NCBI GenBank assembly: GCA_031272775.1
Contig: JAISTB010000034.1
Coordinates: 1-64,000 of the forward strand
Origin: Fusobacteriaceae bacterium
GTDB taxonomy: Bacteria; Fusobacteriota; Fusobacteriia; Fusobacteriales; Fusobacteriaceae
Direction: 5' to 3'
DNA length: 64,000 bases
The notes under the pieces were generated by a model. That model ran no database searches. It had not been told where the DNA came from and saw only the letters and a list, made by a program, of their open reading frames with translations. The position numbers and the translations under genes are program-made. Positions 6,824-15,797 of this stretch are shown one piece after another (positions within the stretch are counted from its first letter, which is position 1; each line of letters starts with the position of its first letter).

Positions 6824-7948
6824 TTATTTTTTCAAAGAAAGGGGCATCACGATGTAGATGTATTTGTGGGAGCCGGTGATCCGAACGGATTTGGCCGAGC
6901 TCACCATTTCCATAACGATATTGTCTTCCTTGTCGAGGTTTTGCACAAAGTCGAGAATGAATTTCGTGTTGAGGGCGATTTTGATCGGTTCGCCCTCGAA
7001 GTTGACCTTTAGCGTCTCGTTGATCCGCGCCAGGTCATTGGCGCCCTCGATCACCATGGCGTCCCCGTTGAAATCCAATGTGGCGCCGTACCGGGATTCC
7101 TGATTGTTCCGGACGAAGATCAGGACGCGGCGCAGGAGCATGGAAAACTCATTGTTGACGATGGTCAGCTTCTTGTCGTAATCGCCGGTCTCGAGGATGG
7201 CCTTGTAGTTGGGGAAATTCATGTCCACAACCCGGCTGATCGTCAGCGTATTGCCGAGTTTGAAGAAAATCTTGCCTTCAATGGCGTAAAACTTGACTTC
7301 GGTGTCTTCATTGGCCCGGAAGAGCTTCACAAGCGAATCCACGGTGGAATAGGGGATGCTCAGGCTCACGGGTTCGTTGACGGCCTCCAGCTCATGCTCG
7401 ATGTACGTCATGCGGAATGTGTCCGTGGAGATGAATTTGAGGGTATTCTCTTCGCTCTCCATGCGGACGCAGTTGATCGAGATGTTTTCGGGGGAAACGG
7501 ACGCCGAAAATTTGACCTTTTCAAGCAGGTCAGCCAAATCTTTGGCCTTGGCCTTGAAATTTTCGGTATTCTTGTCGAAGTCCACGTCCACAGGGATCTT
7601 CGGATAGTCGTCGGCGTTCATCAGCGCGAATTCCGAGGAGGAATCCTCATTTTCGATCAAAAGATTGTTGTCGTTGATGCGCAGCGTGATTTCCGCGTCG
7701 TTCAATTCACCGACGTATTCGGCGACCATCTGGTGCTGGAAGACGATCTTGCCTTCCTCGATGACGTCCTCGCAGGGAATCACTGTTGTAATCGTCGTCT
7801 CAAGGTTCGTCCCCATAAAAAACAGTTCGTTTTTTCTCGTCTCCATATAGGTACAGGAAATAATGGGTTTGACCTTGTTTTCCACGATGGCTTTTTCCAC
7901 GGTTTTGATCCCGCCAAGAAAACTTGCCCGGTTAATCTTGATTATCAC
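6824..7948 (-). CDS. dnaN: DNA polymerase III beta subunit (sliding clamp)
   Basis: Encodes 374 residues, the normal length, starting at GTG with AGGAGG (7956-7961) 7 bases upstream. The clamp encircles DNA and tethers polymerase III. Beta-clamp features are the three repeated topologically similar domains (N-terminal MIIKINRASFLGGIKTVEKA, the central block with ISINCVRMESEENTLKFIST and TDTFRM, and the C-terminal ALNTKFILDFVQNL) and the ending HKYIYIVMPL, the classic clamp C-terminus. It overlaps the end of the sigma-factor gene by 17 bases, is last in a six-gene operon, and is not next to dnaA here. Confidence 0.95.
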   Translation of the reverse strand: MIIKINRASFLGGIKTVEKAIVENKVKPIISCTYMETRKNELFFMGTNLETTITTVIPCEDVIEEGKIVFQHQMVAEYVGELNDAEITLRINDNNLLIENEDSSSEFALMNADDYPKIPVDVDFDKNTENFKAKAKDLADLLEKVKFSASVSPENISINCVRMESEENTLKFISTDTFRMTYIEHELEAVNEPVSLSIPYSTVDSLVKLFRANEDTEVKFYAIEGKIFFKLGNTLTISRVVDMNFPNYKAILETGDYDKKLTIVNNEFSMLLRRVLIFVRNNQESRYGATLDFNGDAMVIEGANDLARINETLKVNFEGEPIKIALNTKFILDFVQNLDKEDNIVMEMVSSAKSVRITGSHKYIYIVMPLSLKK

Positions 7949-8843
7949 TTTTCTTCCTCCTGGTATTATTTTTCTTTATTTTGGCCGTTTTATCCGCTTT
8001 GTCCTGTGATTTTTGGTTCTGTCTCGGGGCATAATTGCCGATGATGCGCTGGAACACGCTGCGCAGCTTTTCGAGCGTGCGTTTTTCGATCTGCCGAACC
8101 CGTTCCCGGGTGATTCGGAATTCGTTGCCGATTTCCTCCAGCGTGTGGATCTCGTAGCCGTCCAAGCCGAAACGCATCTTGAGGATCTCTTTTTCTCTTT
8201 CGTCCAGGGCGTTGACCATGTCGATGACCTGCCGGCGGCCCAATTCCTCGATGACTTTATCTTCAAGGGAACTCCCGTCCTCGTTGATCAGCGTGTCCTC
8301 GAGGAAGATATCCTCGCCGATGGACATGTTGAGGGACATGGTGTCCTGGAAGTCCAGCAGGATTTTTTCCACCTTGCCGTCGGTGATCTTGAGGTCCCGG
8401 GAAATCCGTTCGATGGAGGGGTAAAAGCCGTCTTCCTTGATCTTTGCCATGATATAGCGGTTGACGCGGTTCAGGAGATCGTGCCGGTACGAGGGAATAC
8501 GTATATCCCGCCCTTTGTTGATCACGGCCTTGCTGATGGCCTGTTTGATCCACCAGACCGCGTAGGTCGAAAAACGGAAGCCCTTGTGGATGTCGAACTT
8601 TTCTATGGCGTGAATCAAGCCGAAATTCCCCTCGCTGATCAAGTCGATAAAACTCATCCCTTTTTTCGTATAGCCCTTGGCAACGTTGACCACAAGCCGC
8701 AAGTTAGACAAAATGAGTTGGTTTTTTGCCTCGGGGTCTCCCTCTTCTATTTTTTTCAGCAGTTCCAGCTCTTCATCTTTGTCGAGCACCTTGTATTTCC
8801 GGATGTCTTCGAGATAAAGAGAGATCAAATCGCGATCTTCCAT
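7932..8843 (-). CDS. RNA polymerase sigma-70 family factor, lacking region 1.1
   Basis: Encodes 303 residues. Region 1.2 is at the start (DLISLYLEDIRKYKVLDKDEE), region 2 contains NLRLVVNVAKGY and FSTYAVWWIKQAISKAV (the -10-reading segment), region 3 follows, and region 4.2 is the helix-turn-helix TLEEIGNEFRITRERVRQIE. There is no N-terminal region 1.1, and the protein ends in a lysine-rich tail. It could be the primary sigma factor of a lineage with a short RpoD or an RpoS-like group 2 factor. The consensus promoters in this window would suit either. It sits between gpsA (2-base gap) and dnaN (17-base overlap). Confidence 0.9.
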   Translation of the reverse strand: MEDRDLISLYLEDIRKYKVLDKDEELELLKKIEEGDPEAKNQLILSNLRLVVNVAKGYTKKGMSFIDLISEGNFGLIHAIEKFDIHKGFRFSTYAVWWIKQAISKAVINKGRDIRIPSYRHDLLNRVNRYIMAKIKEDGFYPSIERISRDLKITDGKVEKILLDFQDTMSLNMSIGEDIFLEDTLINEDGSSLEDKVIEELGRRQVIDMVNALDEREKEILKMRFGLDGYEIHTLEEIGNEFRITRERVRQIEKRTLEKLRSVFQRIIGNYAPRQNQKSQDKADKTAKIKKNNTRRKKSDNQD

Positions 8844-8845
8844 AC

Positions 8846-9859
8846 TTATCCCTTCCGTTCGTAAAATTCTTCCTTTGTGCTTCTGCGCATAAGATCCGAC
8901 ACCACGTTCCTCGGGTCGGCGTTTTTGTAGATGACCGCGTAGACGCCGTCGATCAGGGGCATGGAGACCCCCAGTTTTTTCGCGGATTCGTAAATGGCTT
9001 TGACCGTCGGCACGCCTTCGGCCACCATGACCATATCCGCGAGGATTTTGTCGATTTTCTCCCCTTTGCCGAGACGTTCGCCCACATGGCGGTTCCTGCT
9101 GTGGCGGCTCGTACAGGTGACGACGAGGTCGCCAATGCCGGTCAGGCCTGAAAAGGTGGTTTCCCTTGCGCCCATGGCCTTTCCGTAGCGGACCATTTCC
9201 GCGACGCCGCGGGTGATGATGGAGGCCTTGGTGTTGTCGCCGAAGCCCAGACCGTCCGAGATCCCCGCGCCGATGGCGAGACAGTTTTTGACCGCCGCGC
9301 CCAGTTCGACGCCCATGACGTCGTCGTTGATATAGACCCGAAACCTGTCGTTGGTCATGAGTTTCTGGACTTTTTTGGCCTTGGCGGGATCCCCTGCGGC
9401 CACGATGGTGCTGGGCATGCCAATGGCCACTTCCTCGGCGTGGGTGGGCCCTGAAAGGACGACGATATTCTTGTGGAATTTCCCGAGAATTTCGTCTTTG
9501 ATGACCTCCGAGAGCCGCATGCCGCTCTTGATTTCGATGCCTTTTGCCGTATTGATGAGAATGGTTTTGTCCGTGAGCTGCGTCGTAAAGCGCCGGACTA
9601 CGGTCCGCAACTCCTGCGAGGGGACGGAGAGAAGGACATAGTTGACTTTTTCGAGAAGGCCTTCCTCGTCAGCGGTCACATGGACATTGCCGGGGAATTT
9701 GACGCCCGGCAGATAGCGCTTGTTTTCCCGGGCAGCCTCGGTTTCCGCCGCTCTTTCCCTCCGGTGGTCCCAGATGACGACGGGCCGCCCGAAAGCGCCC
9801 AGCATAAGGCCGAGGGCCGTGCCCCAGCTGCCCGCGCCCAGTATCACTACTTTTTCCAA
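8846..9859 (-). CDS. gpsA: Glycerol-3-phosphate dehydrogenase [NAD(P)+]
   Basis: Encodes 337 residues. It reduces dihydroxyacetone phosphate to sn-glycerol-3-phosphate, the backbone precursor used by PlsY. The N-terminal nucleotide-binding motif is ILGAGSWGTALG; the catalytic-lysine region reads GVELGAAVKNCLAIGAG, and NTKASIITRG is the substrate-binding loop. The start is a TTG with AAGGAGG only 4-5 bases upstream; no better start fits. It follows plsY by 21 bases, an obvious functional pair. Confidence 0.95.
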   Translation of the reverse strand: MEKVVILGAGSWGTALGLMLGAFGRPVVIWDHRRERAAETEAARENKRYLPGVKFPGNVHVTADEEGLLEKVNYVLLSVPSQELRTVVRRFTTQLTDKTILINTAKGIEIKSGMRLSEVIKDEILGKFHKNIVVLSGPTHAEEVAIGMPSTIVAAGDPAKAKKVQKLMTNDRFRVYINDDVMGVELGAAVKNCLAIGAGISDGLGFGDNTKASIITRGVAEMVRYGKAMGARETTFSGLTGIGDLVVTCTSRHSRNRHVGERLGKGEKIDKILADMVMVAEGVPTVKAIYESAKKLGVSMPLIDGVYAVIYKNADPRNVVSDLMRRSTKEEFYERKG

Positions 9860-9880: not shown

Positions 9881-10483
9881 CTAAAACTTGAATTTATTTT
9901 CCGATCCGGAACGGAGCCGCGCGATGTTGCTCCGGTGTTTCCAGATCACAAAGATCCCCGTAAAAAGCGTAATGACAAATATGGGGCCCCGGGTCATCCC
10001 CGATTTCGTCGGCGGAAACAGGAGCGTCAGAATCGGAAGCAGGCCCGCGCAGACAATGGAACCCAGCGAGATGTATTTGCTGAGGGCCACAATCACAATG
10101 AAAAGAACAAGCAGGATCAGCGTCACTTTGGGGATCAGGAACAAAAATGTTCCGAGGCTTGTGGCGACGCCCTTTCCGCCCTTGAAGCGCAGGAAACAGG
10201 ACAGCGTATGCCCGAGGATGGCCACCATGCCGATAAAGACCAAGATATTGCCGGAAACGCCGGCTTTACTGGCTAAAAAAGGCGGCAGCCAGCCCTTCAG
10301 CGCGTCGATGAACAGGACGAGGACGCCGTACCTGGCTCCCAGGACCCGCCACGCGTTTGTCGTGCCGGTATTTTTGCTGCCGTGTTCGCGGATATCGATG
10401 TTTTTGAAATATTTTCCCACCCAGACGCCGGCGGGAACGGAACCCAAAAAATACGCAAGAAGAATAAAGAACAGCGATTTCAT
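9881..10483 (-). CDS. plsY: Acyl-phosphate:glycerol-3-phosphate acyltransferase
   Basis: Encodes 200 residues. It is a membrane enzyme that acylates glycerol-3-phosphate with acyl-phosphate, the first step in phospholipid synthesis. PlsY motifs are visible: GSVPAGVWVGKYF, DIREHGSKNTGTTNAWRVLG and GHTLSCFLRFKGGKGVATSLG, in a protein with about five hydrophobic helices. I start at the ATG at 10483, 6 bases from AGGTGA, rather than the GTG just upstream. The ribosome site overlaps the stop codon of the upstream small membrane protein, so translation is coupled. Confidence 0.95.
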   Translation of the reverse strand: MKSLFFILLAYFLGSVPAGVWVGKYFKNIDIREHGSKNTGTTNAWRVLGARYGVLVLFIDALKGWLPPFLASKAGVSGNILVFIGMVAILGHTLSCFLRFKGGKGVATSLGTFLFLIPKVTLILLVLFIVIVALSKYISLGSIVCAGLLPILTLLFPPTKSGMTRGPIFVITLFTGIFVIWKHRSNIARLRSGSENKFKF

Positions 10484-10493
10484 CACAGATCAC

Positions 10494-10826
10494 CTATTTT
10501 ATGAATAATTTGAGCGATTGAAAAAGATCGGAGATATACGTGAAAATCCTTGTTACAGGCACTTTAAGGTAGTAATTCATGTAGACGTAAATATAGGCCG
10601 CGTGCAGGATCAGCGCCACAAAGCGAAATTTGCGGCTGCGGGAGAATAAAAAGCGGAAGAAGGAAAGCACAAAGCCGATGATGGCCACGATTCCCGTAAA
10701 AAACATGATGTCGTTGCTGAACACCCGGCTTTGCAGGATGGAAAGCCAGCCGTCCGTCGCCTCCGGCATTTTCCGGACGATGAACCAGCAGATCCCGTAG
10801 ATGTATTCCAAAAAGCATAAAAACAT
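10494..10826 (-). CDS. Small membrane protein of unknown function
   Basis: Encodes 110 residues with an ATG preceded by GGGAGGA. Three hydrophobic segments can be seen (about 1-17, 37-61 and 70-86), separated by a basic loop (FSRSRKFR). I do not recognise a family. It lies 22 bases after the HsdR-like gene, and its stop codon is embedded in the ribosome site of plsY, so it is translationally tied to phospholipid synthesis. It might anchor the upstream HsdR-like protein at the membrane or assist PlsY; neither is shown by sequence. Confidence 0.75.
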   Translation of the reverse strand: MFLCFLEYIYGICWFIVRKMPEATDGWLSILQSRVFSNDIMFFTGIVAIIGFVLSFFRFLFSRSRKFRFVALILHAAYIYVYMNYYLKVPVTRIFTYISDLFQSLKLFIK

Positions 10827-10848: not shown

Positions 10849-13800
10849 CTATTTGAACAGCGCGTTGCTGTAAATGGTCCTCAGGATCGATAAAATTTTT
10901 TCCTGACGGGCCTCGTCAAAGAGACTGGTAAAATCGGCAAATTCTTCAATTTCATAGGCAAAGGCGTCGCAGTTCTCGATGTAGCCCTTATCGACGACCC
11001 AGGCCCGCAGCCGGGTGAGGAAATTCTTTTGCTCGTCGCTCAGGGTCTTGTCGTTGGTCACGGGAAAGAAGGCCACCTTTACCTGCTCGGCTTCGATTTT
11101 GGCCACTTGCCGGACCAGAAGCCCGAATTGGAGATTGCCGTAGGCGTCTTCATAGTCTTTTTTCGTGCCGAGACGTTTCGTAAACACCCGGGCCAGGGAC
11201 TTGTGGTCCTCCTCGGTCATTTTGTAATTGACCCGCATGCGCCAGATGGCCGCTTGATTGGGATTCGTCCGGATGTAGTCCGTGATTCTCTCCTTGTATT
11301 CCCGGATCCGGAGATTCCGTTCCCGTTCCTCGGGCGTGAGTTCGCTTGCGTTTTCGGTCTTTTCTCCGGACTCTGTCTGCGCGTCGTCGACCACGGGCTC
11401 GGAAACTTTATTTTTCGGCAATTCCGGTTTATCCGGCGTTTCTTTTTCCGCCGGATCCGTCGCAAAAATAAACTTGATTAGTTTTCTTAATTTTGTACGC
11501 ACCATCTCCAGTTCGAGAATGGAACTGTTGTCAATAAATTTGCTGCTGCCGAAATACTTGATATAATCGAGCTCGTTTTTGATTTCGGGAATGTTCTCAT
11601 GCTTGTGCAGCATGTGGCATATGCCGGAAAGCTGCTTTTTTGCCCGGATTACAAAGGGCTTGGATTCCATCTGGGCCAGCATGATGCCGTACATGAAATT
11701 ATCAAATTGAAGACTATATTCATCGCCTTTTATGCGGACAAGGGGCGCGATCTGGACTTCAAGATTGCTCTTGTCCTCAGCGGTCAACCCCGCGTCGTAG
11801 ACAGCCCGGCGCGTATACTTTTCGAGATGGGAAAATTGCAGATGCACGTTGGTCAATTCCGTCGTCACGCTCTTGACGAGGGCGGTCACGAAGTCCGTCA
11901 GCTTGTCGGAAAAGGCCATATAATCCTTGTCGGTCAGCTTGTTGTGCTGGATGTGGTACAAGAGGCCCACGCATTTGACAAAAATATCTTCCGAGATGTT
12001 TCGGAGCTCGAGGTTGTCCTCGCTTTTCTTGTCGGCGCTGAAAAAATCGAAATTGCCCAAATAGTCAAAAATGTAATAGCGCTTTTTCCCGACATAGACT
12101 CCTTCCTTGGGCTCGATACAGGTAATATTGGGATTGGCTACGTTTCCGACGCTCATCATCTGATGAAACTCGAATTTGGAATAGATTTTCTTGAAGAGGA
12201 CCACATTGAGGATTTCGGGAATAATCATGCCCATGGAGGCGAAGCCCACGTCCACAAGGATGTTCACATTGCGCTCGGGGTCCAGAAAATCATCGAGGGA
12301 ATCTCTGTCGTCAAAGAGCGCGAGTCTGATAAAATCGTTGCCCGCGTCGGGATATTTCAACCGGAAGCGTTGCAGGATCCGTTCCCCGTGGTTCCGGTTC
12401 TGGGCAAAAATCACGGTTTTCCCCACGGATTCGCTCTTGGAGTCCTTGATCCCGCTTTTCATGATATCTTTGAGGACCATGTCGATGGTGTTCGCGTTCA
12501 TCAGGTAATTGTCCACGAGGTCGTTGGGGACCCAGTTCAGCATCTTGGCCGGATCGTCCGTATACGTCTCCTCGCAGAGGTTCTTGTTTTCCGTCGTCAG
12601 CTGGTCATAGGCCATGTTGTTTTCCAGGACTTTGTTGCCGATGGTGACGACGCTGTAGGGCACGATGATGTTGTCCTGCTGTAGGGCTTCCTCATAGTGG
12701 TAAATGTAGCGGCTGTCGTCCCGGTTCGTCCCGAAAAAGCGGAAGACGTCGGGGTCCAGGTCGTCCTTGGGCAGCGGGGAAATCCCCACGACGGCGGAAT
12801 CGAAATAGCGGAAGATCTCTCCGTAGGAGATGATCGTATTCCGGCAGACGTTGTCGACGACGATCAGGTCAAATTCGCCCGGGGAGAAATAGCGCTCGCC
12901 GCTGCCGGTGATGTGACCCAGTTCCTTGACGATGTCTTCGGGCGTGGAAACGAGCAGTCGTCCGGCGTCGTCGGCGTACTTGCTGTATTCGCCGATGGAC
13001 ATGCTGAGAATGAGCCGCTTCAGCATTTTCTTCGTATACTTGAGATTGACGTCCCGCCCGATTAGATAGAGGACGCTGGTCACGTAGTTGGCCCGGGACA
13101 TGAGGTCGATCAGTCCCGCCAAAACTCTCCCCTGAGCGCTGCCGCTCGTCATGAAGATCAGGCTTTTCGTTTTGTTTTCGATAAAATCCGACGTGACGGC
13201 CTTGATGGCCTCCACTTCGTAGGGAAGCGGCGCGATCCGGTTGTCGATGGCCACCGTGATCAGGTCTTTTTTGCTTTTCTTGAGATTTTTGATCCGGTGC
13301 AGATCCTCGAGCCCGAAAATGCCGGCAATCTTTCTCGGCGTGGCGTGCAGGCTGTCCATGTAATAGAAGGAACCGCCGTGAACGAGGAAAACGGCCGGTA
13401 TTCGCCGGGTGTCGCTGCCGATGTGGCCCGCGTAGCGGACGGCCTGTTTTCTGCCGTATTCGAGATCCTCTAGGCTGTAGCGGCCCTCGATGATCGCCAG
13501 GGGCAAGCCGTCTTTGCCCAGGAGCAGGTAGTCGATGGCGACTTTTTCCCTGCCTTCAAGGGGACTGCGGATCTCGTATTCGACGTCTTTCTTGATGTCC
13601 CGCTCGGGGTCCCAGCCCGCGAATTTGAGGTCGAGGTCGATATAAAAGGAGCGGACGCTCATTTTGTAAAAATCGGCGGGGCGGAATGTCCGCAGTTTCC
13701 GGTTCAGATCCTTTTTGATCAGAAAATAATTGCGAACGCCGGAAATCTGGTCCTCCAGCCGCTTGGAGACCGCCTCGTCGCGGAAAACCAGGCTTTTCTT

Positions 13801-14265
13801 CTCAAAGGCCAGATCTTTGTTCAGGACCGTGATCATGCCGACGGGGATATCTTCCTCGCGGAATTCCCTTTCCGTATAGGTCAGACCGTAGACGTAATCG
13901 ATCCACAGCACAAACTCAAAAACAATGGACAGCGCCAAAACCGCGTCATCCTTGGTCAGTTCGTCTTCCGACTGAAGCGTGAATTTCCACAGTTTGACAA
14001 TATACGGGAGTTTGAGGATCACCTGTTCGTCTACGAGGGACTTGAACAGGGGGTCCGCGATCAACTGATCGAGCTTTTTGTATTTTTCCCGGCCCGGCAG
14101 ATTCTCCACGGCGTACACCCAGCGCACCGCGAAAGTCAAAGCCTCGTAGCACCCCAAAACGGAGAGGGCCAGCGACGTCGAGAGAATATTTTCCGTTTCT
14201 ATACAGACATCAGAAAACAACTCGTATTGTTTCAGATGCTTCAAATATTCGAAATTGGTAGGCAT
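10849..14265 (-). CDS. HsdR-like protein (type I restriction R-subunit fold) with all catalytic motifs eroded
   Basis: Encodes 1138 residues, the length and domain order of an EcoEI-type HsdR. An N-terminal DUF4145-like helical region spans about 20-130. The PD-(D/E)xK domain at 225-310 keeps D245 and E260, but the usual ExK reads E-G-R. Two RecA-like helicase domains follow at 340-720. The phosphate-binding loop expected as TGTGKT reads SGSAQGR (374-380) with no lysine; DEAH reads DNVC (471-474); motif III reads GISPLPK (494-500); the end of motif VI, normally QMIGRGTR, reads QMMSVGNVA (702-710). Surrounding non-catalytic landmarks are well kept, and the frame is intact. A charged linker (935-985) leads to a helical C-terminal domain. 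No hsdM or hsdS is nearby. It is first in a six-gene operon ending in dnaN. I infer a non-enzymatic, DNA-binding or scaffolding role. Confidence 0.8.
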   Translation of the reverse strand: MPTNFEYLKHLKQYELFSDVCIETENILSTSLALSVLGCYEALTFAVRWVYAVENLPGREKYKKLDQLIADPLFKSLVDEQVILKLPYIVKLWKFTLQSEDELTKDDAVLALSIVFEFVLWIDYVYGLTYTEREFREEDIPVGMITVLNKDLAFEKKSLVFRDEAVSKRLEDQISGVRNYFLIKKDLNRKLRTFRPADFYKMSVRSFYIDLDLKFAGWDPERDIKKDVEYEIRSPLEGREKVAIDYLLLGKDGLPLAIIEGRYSLEDLEYGRKQAVRYAGHIGSDTRRIPAVFLVHGGSFYYMDSLHATPRKIAGIFGLEDLHRIKNLKKSKKDLITVAIDNRIAPLPYEVEAIKAVTSDFIENKTKSLIFMTSGSAQGRVLAGLIDLMSRANYVTSVLYLIGRDVNLKYTKKMLKRLILSMSIGEYSKYADDAGRLLVSTPEDIVKELGHITGSGERYFSPGEFDLIVVDNVCRNTIISYGEIFRYFDSAVVGISPLPKDDLDPDVFRFFGTNRDDSRYIYHYEEALQQDNIIVPYSVVTIGNKVLENNMAYDQLTTENKNLCEETYTDDPAKMLNWVPNDLVDNYLMNANTIDMVLKDIMKSGIKDSKSESVGKTVIFAQNRNHGERILQRFRLKYPDAGNDFIRLALFDDRDSLDDFLDPERNVNILVDVGFASMGMIIPEILNVVLFKKIYSKFEFHQMMSVGNVANPNITCIEPKEGVYVGKKRYYIFDYLGNFDFFSADKKSEDNLELRNISEDIFVKCVGLLYHIQHNKLTDKDYMAFSDKLTDFVTALVKSVTTELTNVHLQFSHLEKYTRRAVYDAGLTAEDKSNLEVQIAPLVRIKGDEYSLQFDNFMYGIMLAQMESKPFVIRAKKQLSGICHMLHKHENIPEIKNELDYIKYFGSSKFIDNSSILELEMVRTKLRKLIKFIFATDPAEKETPDKPELPKNKVSEPVVDDAQTESGEKTENASELTPEERERNLRIREYKERITDYIRTNPNQAAIWRMRVNYKMTEEDHKSLARVFTKRLGTKKDYEDAYGNLQFGLLVRQVAKIEAEQVKVAFFPVTNDKTLSDEQKNFLTRLRAWVVDKGYIENCDAFAYEIEEFADFTSLFDEARQEKILSILRTIYSNALFK

Positions 14266-14385: not shown

Positions 14386-14427
14386 ATTATACCAAAAAAT
14401 GCATGGTTTTGTCTATAGATTAGACAA
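14386..14427 (-). promoter_or_regulatory. Promoter with overlapping inverted repeat for the HsdR-like/plsY/gpsA/sigma/dnaN operon
   Basis: On the minus strand, TAGACA (14415-14410), an 18-base spacer and TATAAT (14391-14386). A perfect 7-bp inverted repeat, TTGTCTA-N5-TAGACAA (14409-14427), covers the -35 box, as a repressor operator would. The leader before the first start codon is about 115 bases, with nothing else recognised. Confidence 0.65.
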
Positions 14428-14450
14428 TTATTTTTCGGGGATGGTTGTAC

Positions 14451-14483
14451 AAAAAAATTCTGCCGGTTCTTTTCAGAACCGGC
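14451..14483 (-). terminator. Intrinsic terminator after the D-Ala-D-Ala carboxypeptidase
   Basis: An 8-bp GC-rich stem (14462-14469 with 14476-14483) followed on the minus strand by seven T residues (14457-14451). Confidence 0.85.
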
Positions 14484-14507: not shown

Positions 14508-15797
14508 TTAGAACGTCAGCTTGAGCTTGACGTCATCCCGCGTCCGGAGATTGCCCTCGATGATTTTTTCGTCTCTGATGTAGATCGCGTAGGTCCCGAG
14601 GATCTCGTTTTTTTCCACGGGGGCGATGACCTTGGCGCTGCGTTTGATCTTGATGTTGACGTTGTCGTTGACTTTGATGACCCTGCCGTAGGTCCGATCG
14701 GGGTAGAGATCGATAAATTCGCTGGCGCCGTGGATTACGGGGATCCGGGCCAGGGCCCGGGATTCGTCGAGGATCTGCTTTACGGCAAAGTGGGCGTCAA
14801 AGGAATCCACGTAGGCAAGGGCCACGGCGTCCCGCTCCCGGTAGGATTTTCCGCCGAGAACCACCGTAATGATCCGGAGCCCGTTGCGGTCCGTGACAAT
14901 GGCGATGTTGTAGCCCGATTTGGAGTGGTAGCCGGTCTTGATGCCGTAGATCCCGCGCTCTCCGATGAGTTTGTTGCGGTTGGTGAGCTTGATCTTGCCG
15001 CCGTGGATCGTTTCGGCGGCGGTACCCGCCACGGCCATCAGGCGCTTTCTTTTGACAAATTCCACGGCCAGCTTGTAGACCCCCATGGCCGTTCCCATGT
15101 CCATGTCTTTTTTCGTGATGTGGGTCGGAAGCCCCGCCGGCGTGTGAAATTCGAGTTCATTTTCGAGACCCAGTTCCCGGGCCTTGTCGTTCATCATGTC
15201 CACGAAGTCGGCAATACTCCCCCCCACATGGTCGGCAAGGGCGTAAATCGCGTTGTTGGCCGAATAGATCCCCGCGGCCTTGATCAGATCCTCCACGGTA
15301 AAAGTTTCGCCCGATTTCATGGGAATTCCGCTGCCCCCTATGCCGATGGCGGCCTTTGGGATGGCGATCTTGTCCGTAAGGGCGATCTTTCCCGCGTTGA
15401 CGGCGTCGTCGACGACGAGGAGCGACATCATTTTCGTCAGCGAGGCTAGGGGCCATTTGACCGAGCTGTTTTCGGAAAAGAAAATTTCCCCGTGCTCTTC
15501 GCCCAAAAGCACCGCGGCGTATAATTGCTCCGCGGAGGCGATATTCTCGGCTACGCCGGTCTCGCCGCTTTCCGTGTCTTCCTTGTCGCTGTCGGGAACC
15601 GGGATGATGTCCAGCTTTATCGGCTCGGGCGCGGCTTTTTTCACGGCTTTTTTCTTTTTTGGGGCGGCTTTTTTCGGAGTTTCCGCCGCCGGGGCGGATA
15701 CTTCCGCTTTTGTCGGGATCGGGGGGACAGACATCCCCCGGGACAAATCAAAAATACCGAAAAACAGGATACCGAAAAGGATAAGGACTCGTTTCAT
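14508..15797 (-). CDS. Serine-type D-Ala-D-Ala carboxypeptidase (penicillin-binding protein, DacA family)
   Basis: Encodes 429 residues. It trims the terminal D-Ala from peptidoglycan stem peptides in the periplasm. The three serine-peptidase motifs are present: S119-L-T-K122 with the nucleophilic serine, S179-A-N181, and K287-T-G289. An N-terminal hydrophobic segment (about 3-17) is a signal or anchor; it is followed by an unusual Lys/Pro/Ala linker (about 28-60). A C-terminal beta-rich domain (about 345-429) matches the PBP5-associated domain. It is a single-gene unit with its own terminator. Confidence 0.92.
   Translation of the reverse strand: MKRVLILFGILFFGIFDLSRGMSVPPIPTKAEVSAPAAETPKKAAPKKKKAVKKAAPEPIKLDIIPVPDSDKEDTESGETGVAENIASAEQLYAAVLLGEEHGEIFFSENSSVKWPLASLTKMMSLLVVDDAVNAGKIALTDKIAIPKAAIGIGGSGIPMKSGETFTVEDLIKAAGIYSANNAIYALADHVGGSIADFVDMMNDKARELGLENELEFHTPAGLPTHITKKDMDMGTAMGVYKLAVEFVKRKRLMAVAGTAAETIHGGKIKLTNRNKLIGERGIYGIKTGYHSKSGYNIAIVTDRNGLRIITVVLGGKSYRERDAVALAYVDSFDAHFAVKQILDESRALARIPVIHGASEFIDLYPDRTYGRVIKVNDNVNIKIKRSAKVIAPVEKNEILGTYAIYIRDEKIIEGNLRTRDDVKLKLTF

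Follow-up and report, generated by a model that had tools for sequence, protein, structure and literature searches.

Restriction genes are usually viewed as dispensable, and as decaying once their partners or their activity have been lost. The gene on the minus strand at 10849..14265 of the window analysed here (the 64,000 nucleotides at positions 1 to 64,000 of contig JAISTB010000034.1, Fusobacteriaceae bacterium assembly GCA_031272775.1) raises the question of what becomes of a type I restriction R subunit (HsdR) that has lost both. A first-pass annotation, made from the letters alone, described a full-length HsdR-like protein that had lost every catalytic motif and was unlinked to hsdM or hsdS, and proposed that its fold is kept under selection for another job, perhaps that of a regulator, a nucleoid factor or a new defence component. 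The alternative is a restriction gene that died recently and whose frame stays open by accident.

Results

An intact frame of HsdR descent

As annotated, the frame is intact over 1138 codons; it has an ATG start and no internal stop (all features of the window given below likewise lie on the minus strand), and frame, profile, orthologue, structure and selection evidence together mark it as the gene of an HsdR-like pseudoenzyme of 1138 aa. The proposed kinship with HsdR is borne out by matches to PADLOC REase_I (E=8e-68) and to Pfam EcoEI_R_C (2e-11) and ResIII (2e-7), both above the Pfam cut-off; to NCBIfam NF046051, the EcoAI/FtnUII type I R subunit, the protein scores 89.3 bits, below the curated cut-off of 550. 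By domain architecture and homology it is an HsdR by descent. Its N-terminus had been called DUF4145-like: residues 1-135 are indeed homologous to those of L018, an intact clostridial HsdR (44% identity), with the Pfam domain itself recognised in L018 only. A helical domain occupies residues 761-935 (11461..11985), and the EcoEI_R_C domain residues 989-1129 (10879..11301). This last region belongs to the part of HsdR thought to contact HsdM.

An AlphaFold2 model of the protein has a pLDDT of 74.5 and a pTM of 0.48, and L018, modelled with the same alignment, a pLDDT of 73.8 and a pTM of 0.38; both models are moderate in confidence and have little to say on domain arrangement. Because the intact L018 scores no better, the fold of the HsdR-like protein, as modelled, shows no sign of collapse. 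The best solved matches to the model in a Foldseek search were a V. vulnificus HsdR fragment (3h1t) and EcoR124I HsdR entries.

The genus is represented by three draft genomes, the window's own (G000), G001 and G002, with completeness of 99, 92 and 97%. Full-length orthologues occupy the same genomic place in G001 (73% identical) and G002 (67%), and are the only orthologues in the 98 Fusobacteriota genomes searched; where other Fusobacteriota have an HsdR at all, it is an ordinary one of about 27% identity. The open frames of the gene in the three species measure 1136-1144 codons.

Loss of the ATP site and erosion of the nuclease site

The motifs quoted in the annotation all occur exactly in the sequence, within IIEGR, SGSAQGR, VVDNVCR and QMMSVGNVA. 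That every catalytic motif is lost proved right for Walker A, DEAH and motifs III, V and VI, and too strong for the nuclease, where D245 and E260 survive throughout the three species and G002 has also retained K262. In alignments with intact relatives, Walker A (residues 371-381; 13123..13155) reads FMTSGSAQGRV in place of VMATGTGKTRT; in motif II (residues 469-475; 12841..12861), now VVDNVCR, the DEAH or DESH of the relatives has become DNVC; motif III (residues 494-499; 12769..12786) reads GISPLP in place of GLTATP; motif V (residues 672-683; 12217..12252) reads DVGFASMGMIIP in place of SVDMLDTGIDVP; and motif VI (residues 702-710; 12136..12162) reads QMMSVGNVA in place of QMIGRGTRL.

Superfamily 2 (SF2) motors need the Walker lysine, the DExH glutamate and the motif VI arginine for ATP-driven translocation. 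In the order G000, G001 and G002, the aligned residues are Q, Q and P at K378, N, N and N at E472, and V, L and I at R706. Because all three residues that define the ATP site of an SF2 translocase are absent, ATP-driven translocation by the HsdR-like protein is, on its sequence, not credible.

The PD-(D/E)xK nuclease core, counting the QxxxY position, aligns to residues 240-278 (13432..13548). Beside the conserved D245 and E260, the K262 position holds R, R and K, and the Q274 position Q, Q and L; E201 and E227, invariant elsewhere in the family, are replaced in the clade formed by the three proteins (the dead clade). Replacing the lysine equivalent to K262 in EcoR124I (K167A) abolished cleavage (PMC2602864). 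Given these replacements and the behaviour of that mutant, the nuclease, although its site is only partly eroded, is probably, not certainly, dead.

The lack of a link to hsdM and hsdS extends over the entire genome and across the genus: Methylase_S is absent from the three genomes, no type I system was found in them, and the HsdR-like gene is accompanied by HsdM and HsdS neither in its operon nor elsewhere in its genome. Matches to N6_Mtase in the three genomes are weak, and the only one common to all three is an orphan Eco57I-type N6-methylase directly beside murJ (L029:1477-3024 in the window's own genome, C8; also L028 and L030). The intact relatives inspected with full flanks belong to hsdM-hsdS-hsdR operons, hsdM and hsdS being recognised by Pfam next to L018, L023 and L024 and by order and motif next to L036-L038.

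Purifying selection and shifts in constraint

The annotation had named orthologues with intact motifs and an adjacent hsdMS, or a dN/dS near one, as signs of a recently dead gene. The orthologues in G001 and G002 are themselves ATPase-dead and lack hsdMS, and dN/dS between G000 and G001 comes to 0.093 when counted and to 0.055 under maximum likelihood (2dlnL=771 against omega=1). This value of about 0.05-0.09 is comparable to those of the nearby plsY (0.104 by counting, 0.071 by maximum likelihood) and gpsA (0.117, 0.028), dacA having 0.172 and 0.045, and omega=1 was rejected in each of six domains tested. For pairs with G002, dS is saturated and dN/dS serves for direction only. Third-position G+C is 72% in G000 and 25% in G002, and nonetheless the two proteins retain their 67% identity. 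Dead sister orthologues and a dN/dS far below one both support the proposal that selection maintains the fold for some task other than ATP-driven restriction. Stops, frameshifts or a dN/dS near one, by which a pseudogene would be known, were found in none of the three species.

To see where constraint has shifted, pairs within the dead clade were set against intact pairs that are about as divergent overall. Identity in the P-loop is 0.38-0.69 in the dead clade versus 0.92-1.00 in intact pairs; motifs Ib and VI are also looser, and the EcoEI_R_C domain is somewhat relaxed (0.51-0.60 versus 0.58-0.75). The helical domain is mostly tighter than in intact pairs (0.61-0.73 versus 0.41-0.68), the N-terminus is similar or slightly tighter, and residues 240-262 are 78-96% identical inside the dead clade. 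Of the 219 positions that never vary in the intact set, all three species keep 114; at 50 they agree on a new residue, at 32 they differ, and 23 are mixed. Because the new residue at each of these 50 positions is common to the three, the simplest view is that much of the change predates the species split.

Origin

The closest relatives of the dead clade are clostridial HsdRs, at 35% identity, with clostridial members covering 33-36%. In a tree of 36 rows, the three proteins group together (100/100) within clostridial HsdRs (92/94). The stem leading to them measures 2.04 changes per column, where the median tip is 0.2; a 14-row tree puts it at 1.72. For plsY-gpsA-sigma, the genus stem comes to no more than about 0.15, much like the tips of the genus. 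The long HsdR-like stem beside this short one suggests that the gene was acquired from a clostridial lineage and went through a burst of change before constraint returned, although unsampled donors may account for part of the stem's length. In all the other homologues read, more than 35 from Clostridia and further Fusobacteriota, the ATPase motifs are intact wherever the sequence covers them. No further dead HsdR appeared among the strong dead-profile matches read from 98 Fusobacteriota genomes and 391 genomes of one clostridial class, and the viral contigs searched held no relative of the protein.

Locus and promoter

Upstream of the gene in all three species lies a dacA-like D-Ala-D-Ala carboxypeptidase gene (14508..15797). 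Downstream, after 22 nt, comes p110 (10494..10826), followed by plsY (9881..10486), gpsA (8846..9859), a sigma-70 family factor (7932..8843) and dnaN, encoding the beta clamp (6824..7948). The order dacA-HsdR-like-p110-plsY-gpsA-sigma recurs in G000, G001 and G002, with dnaN next in G000 and G002. At dnaN's usual place by the sigma gene, G001 has a 428-aa open frame on the opposite strand with no Pfam match (L034:4208-5494). The locus in G002 has two extra genes, a transporter-like one before the HsdR-like gene and an ankyrin-repeat one (L035:13063-13923, G002 only) between it and p110. The p110 protein (110 aa, small, hydrophobic, no Pfam match) is confined to the genus and always encoded just upstream of plsY. 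The string plsY-gpsA-sigma-dnaN is conserved across the family, and the HsdR-like gene and p110 are limited to the genus; a divergent orthologue at the same locus of other Fusobacteriaceae was considered and rejected, this string being present there and both genes absent. The neighbourhood is one of housekeeping genes and lends no support to a role in defence.

A terminator-like hairpin with a T run after dacA (14462..14483), read from the sequence, separates the HsdR-like gene from its upstream neighbour. A promoter-like TAGACA-18-TATAAT follows (14386..14415; 11/12 matches, TG before the -10), its hexamers and spacing kept in G001 and G002, so that the 18-nt spacer and the -10 are the same in the three species. 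Overlapping the -35 box is a 19-bp dyad, TTGTCTA-ATCTA-TAGACAA (14409..14427), with perfect 7-bp arms and a 5-nt spacer, which stands out by its three-species conservation: 25 positions of the 27-nt block around it (14409-14435) are identical in all three, whose G+C contents differ widely, and the flanks have diverged. Near-exact dyads number one per genome in the three genomes, always at this promoter. A wider dyad regulon was rejected, since the only other candidates were looser sites with two mismatches, close to the level of the control pattern. No leader RNA structure was found (z=+1.14).

Between the HsdR-like gene and dnaN, no good promoter or terminator was found on the minus strand. 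Because the gene has its own promoter and none of these signals interrupts the string, it probably heads the compact p110-plsY-gpsA-sigma-dnaN string as one long transcript, so far as sequence signals tell.

Discussion

Homology to HsdR, genus-wide loss of the ATPase motifs, absence of hsdS, strong sequence constraint, a fixed place with a conserved promoter and dyad, and nesting among clostridial proteins all have to be accommodated by any account of this gene. We consider it probable that the protein is an exapted HsdR: a pseudoenzyme serving as a nucleotide-independent scaffold, able to bind but not to translocate, and probably not to cut. The ancestor of the genus would have acquired a clostridial-type type I R subunit, parted from hsdM and hsdS; in this ancestral HsdR the ATP site would have been lost and the nuclease site eroded, and the entire fold would then have been fixed by purifying selection. 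As a passive, ATP-independent clamp or scaffold, the protein may, in the manner of RecC and AddB, bind duplex DNA, a protein partner or both by way of the N-terminus, nuclease fold and helical domain that it retains. By position and shared distribution only, p110 is the first candidate partner and the dyad the first candidate DNA site.

A rival reading, a recently dead restriction gene with an accidentally open frame, has on its side the loss of the catalytic motifs and the absence of hsdM and hsdS. It has, however, to contend with three open frames at 67-73% identity and an omega near 0.05, with a conserved promoter and ribosome-binding region, and with derived residues common to the clade, and we give it hardly any weight; on the comparison of the three species, a pseudogene is excluded for practical purposes. 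An unlikely reading, though a better one, is that only the helicase is dead and that the nuclease fold cuts or nicks without ATP through D245, E260 and R/K262. The invariance of the two acidic residues, the lysine kept in G002 and the high identity of residues 240-262 would fit such an activity, but two of the three species have arginine for the lysine whose EcoR124I equivalent cannot be replaced by alanine without loss of cleavage (PMC2602864), the third has leucine for Q274, and E201 and E227 are gone.

Two further readings assign the protein a methylase-related partner. As a restriction decoy, the dead R subunit would capture the M2S core of any type I system entering the cell and so block assembly of the active enzyme, which would suit both the retention of the full architecture, EcoEI_R_C included, and three genomes without a type I system; yet EcoEI_R_C is among the less constrained parts, the locus is neither a defence nor a mobile region, and we regard the idea as improbable. 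Slightly less probable again is a non-cutting epigenetic reader working with the Eco57I-type methylase: that enzyme, encoded in all three genomes, combines an intact NPPY motif with a TaqI_C specificity domain, but its gene is unlinked and its architecture differs from that of HsdM.

A bolder reading would have the HsdR-like protein bind the dyad at its own promoter and thereby control the plsY/gpsA/sigma/dnaN string. We hold this to be a long shot; if true, a former restriction motor would have become a DNA-bound regulator, and the string under its control unites phospholipid synthesis, through plsY and gpsA, with a sigma factor and, in dnaN, the replication clamp.

In domain order, length, structural matches and its level of clostridial identity, the protein resembles HsdR of the EcoAI/EcoEI type (NF046051, EcoEI_R_C), from which it differs by the loss of the ATPase motifs, the replacement of the nuclease lysine in two of three species, and a housekeeping locus without hsdM or hsdS. 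Dead helicase-nuclease scaffolds are already known: in RecC, a dead nuclease fold guides DNA (PMC1185551), and AddB has an inactivated helicase-like domain (PMC4824097). Like the HsdR-like protein, RecC (of RecBCD) and AddB (of AddAB) combine helicase and nuclease folds that have lost catalysis, and they serve as DNA-binding scaffolds; the HsdR-like protein belongs to a different helicase superfamily and origin, its DNA binding is only inferred, and no RecB/AddA-like partner is encoded adjacent to it. Laboratory mutants of EcoR124I HsdR (K220A/E/R, D151A, E165H and K167A), which have lost ATP or nuclease function at single sites, still fold (PMC2602864), and mutant entries are among the Foldseek matches (PDB 4bec, 4beb, 4be7 and 4xjx). 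The mutants were engineered, one site at a time, in an enzyme that depends on M2S, whereas here the loss is natural, spans several motifs and occurs without M2S.

A scaffold derived from HsdR would be new among these, and the literature searched, which covers few subscription papers, yielded no report of a solitary or domesticated, conserved and catalytically dead HsdR. What distinguishes the case is an R subunit of 1138 residues without motor, partners and probably nuclease that is kept as tightly as the nearby metabolic enzymes. As a candidate natural exaptation, it asks which parts of the HsdR fold work without ATP, as RecC does for the recombination helicases.

In another genus, an N-terminal HsdR fragment with an in-frame TAA (L008 of G046, about 1537-2178) has the appearance of an ordinary decayed copy.
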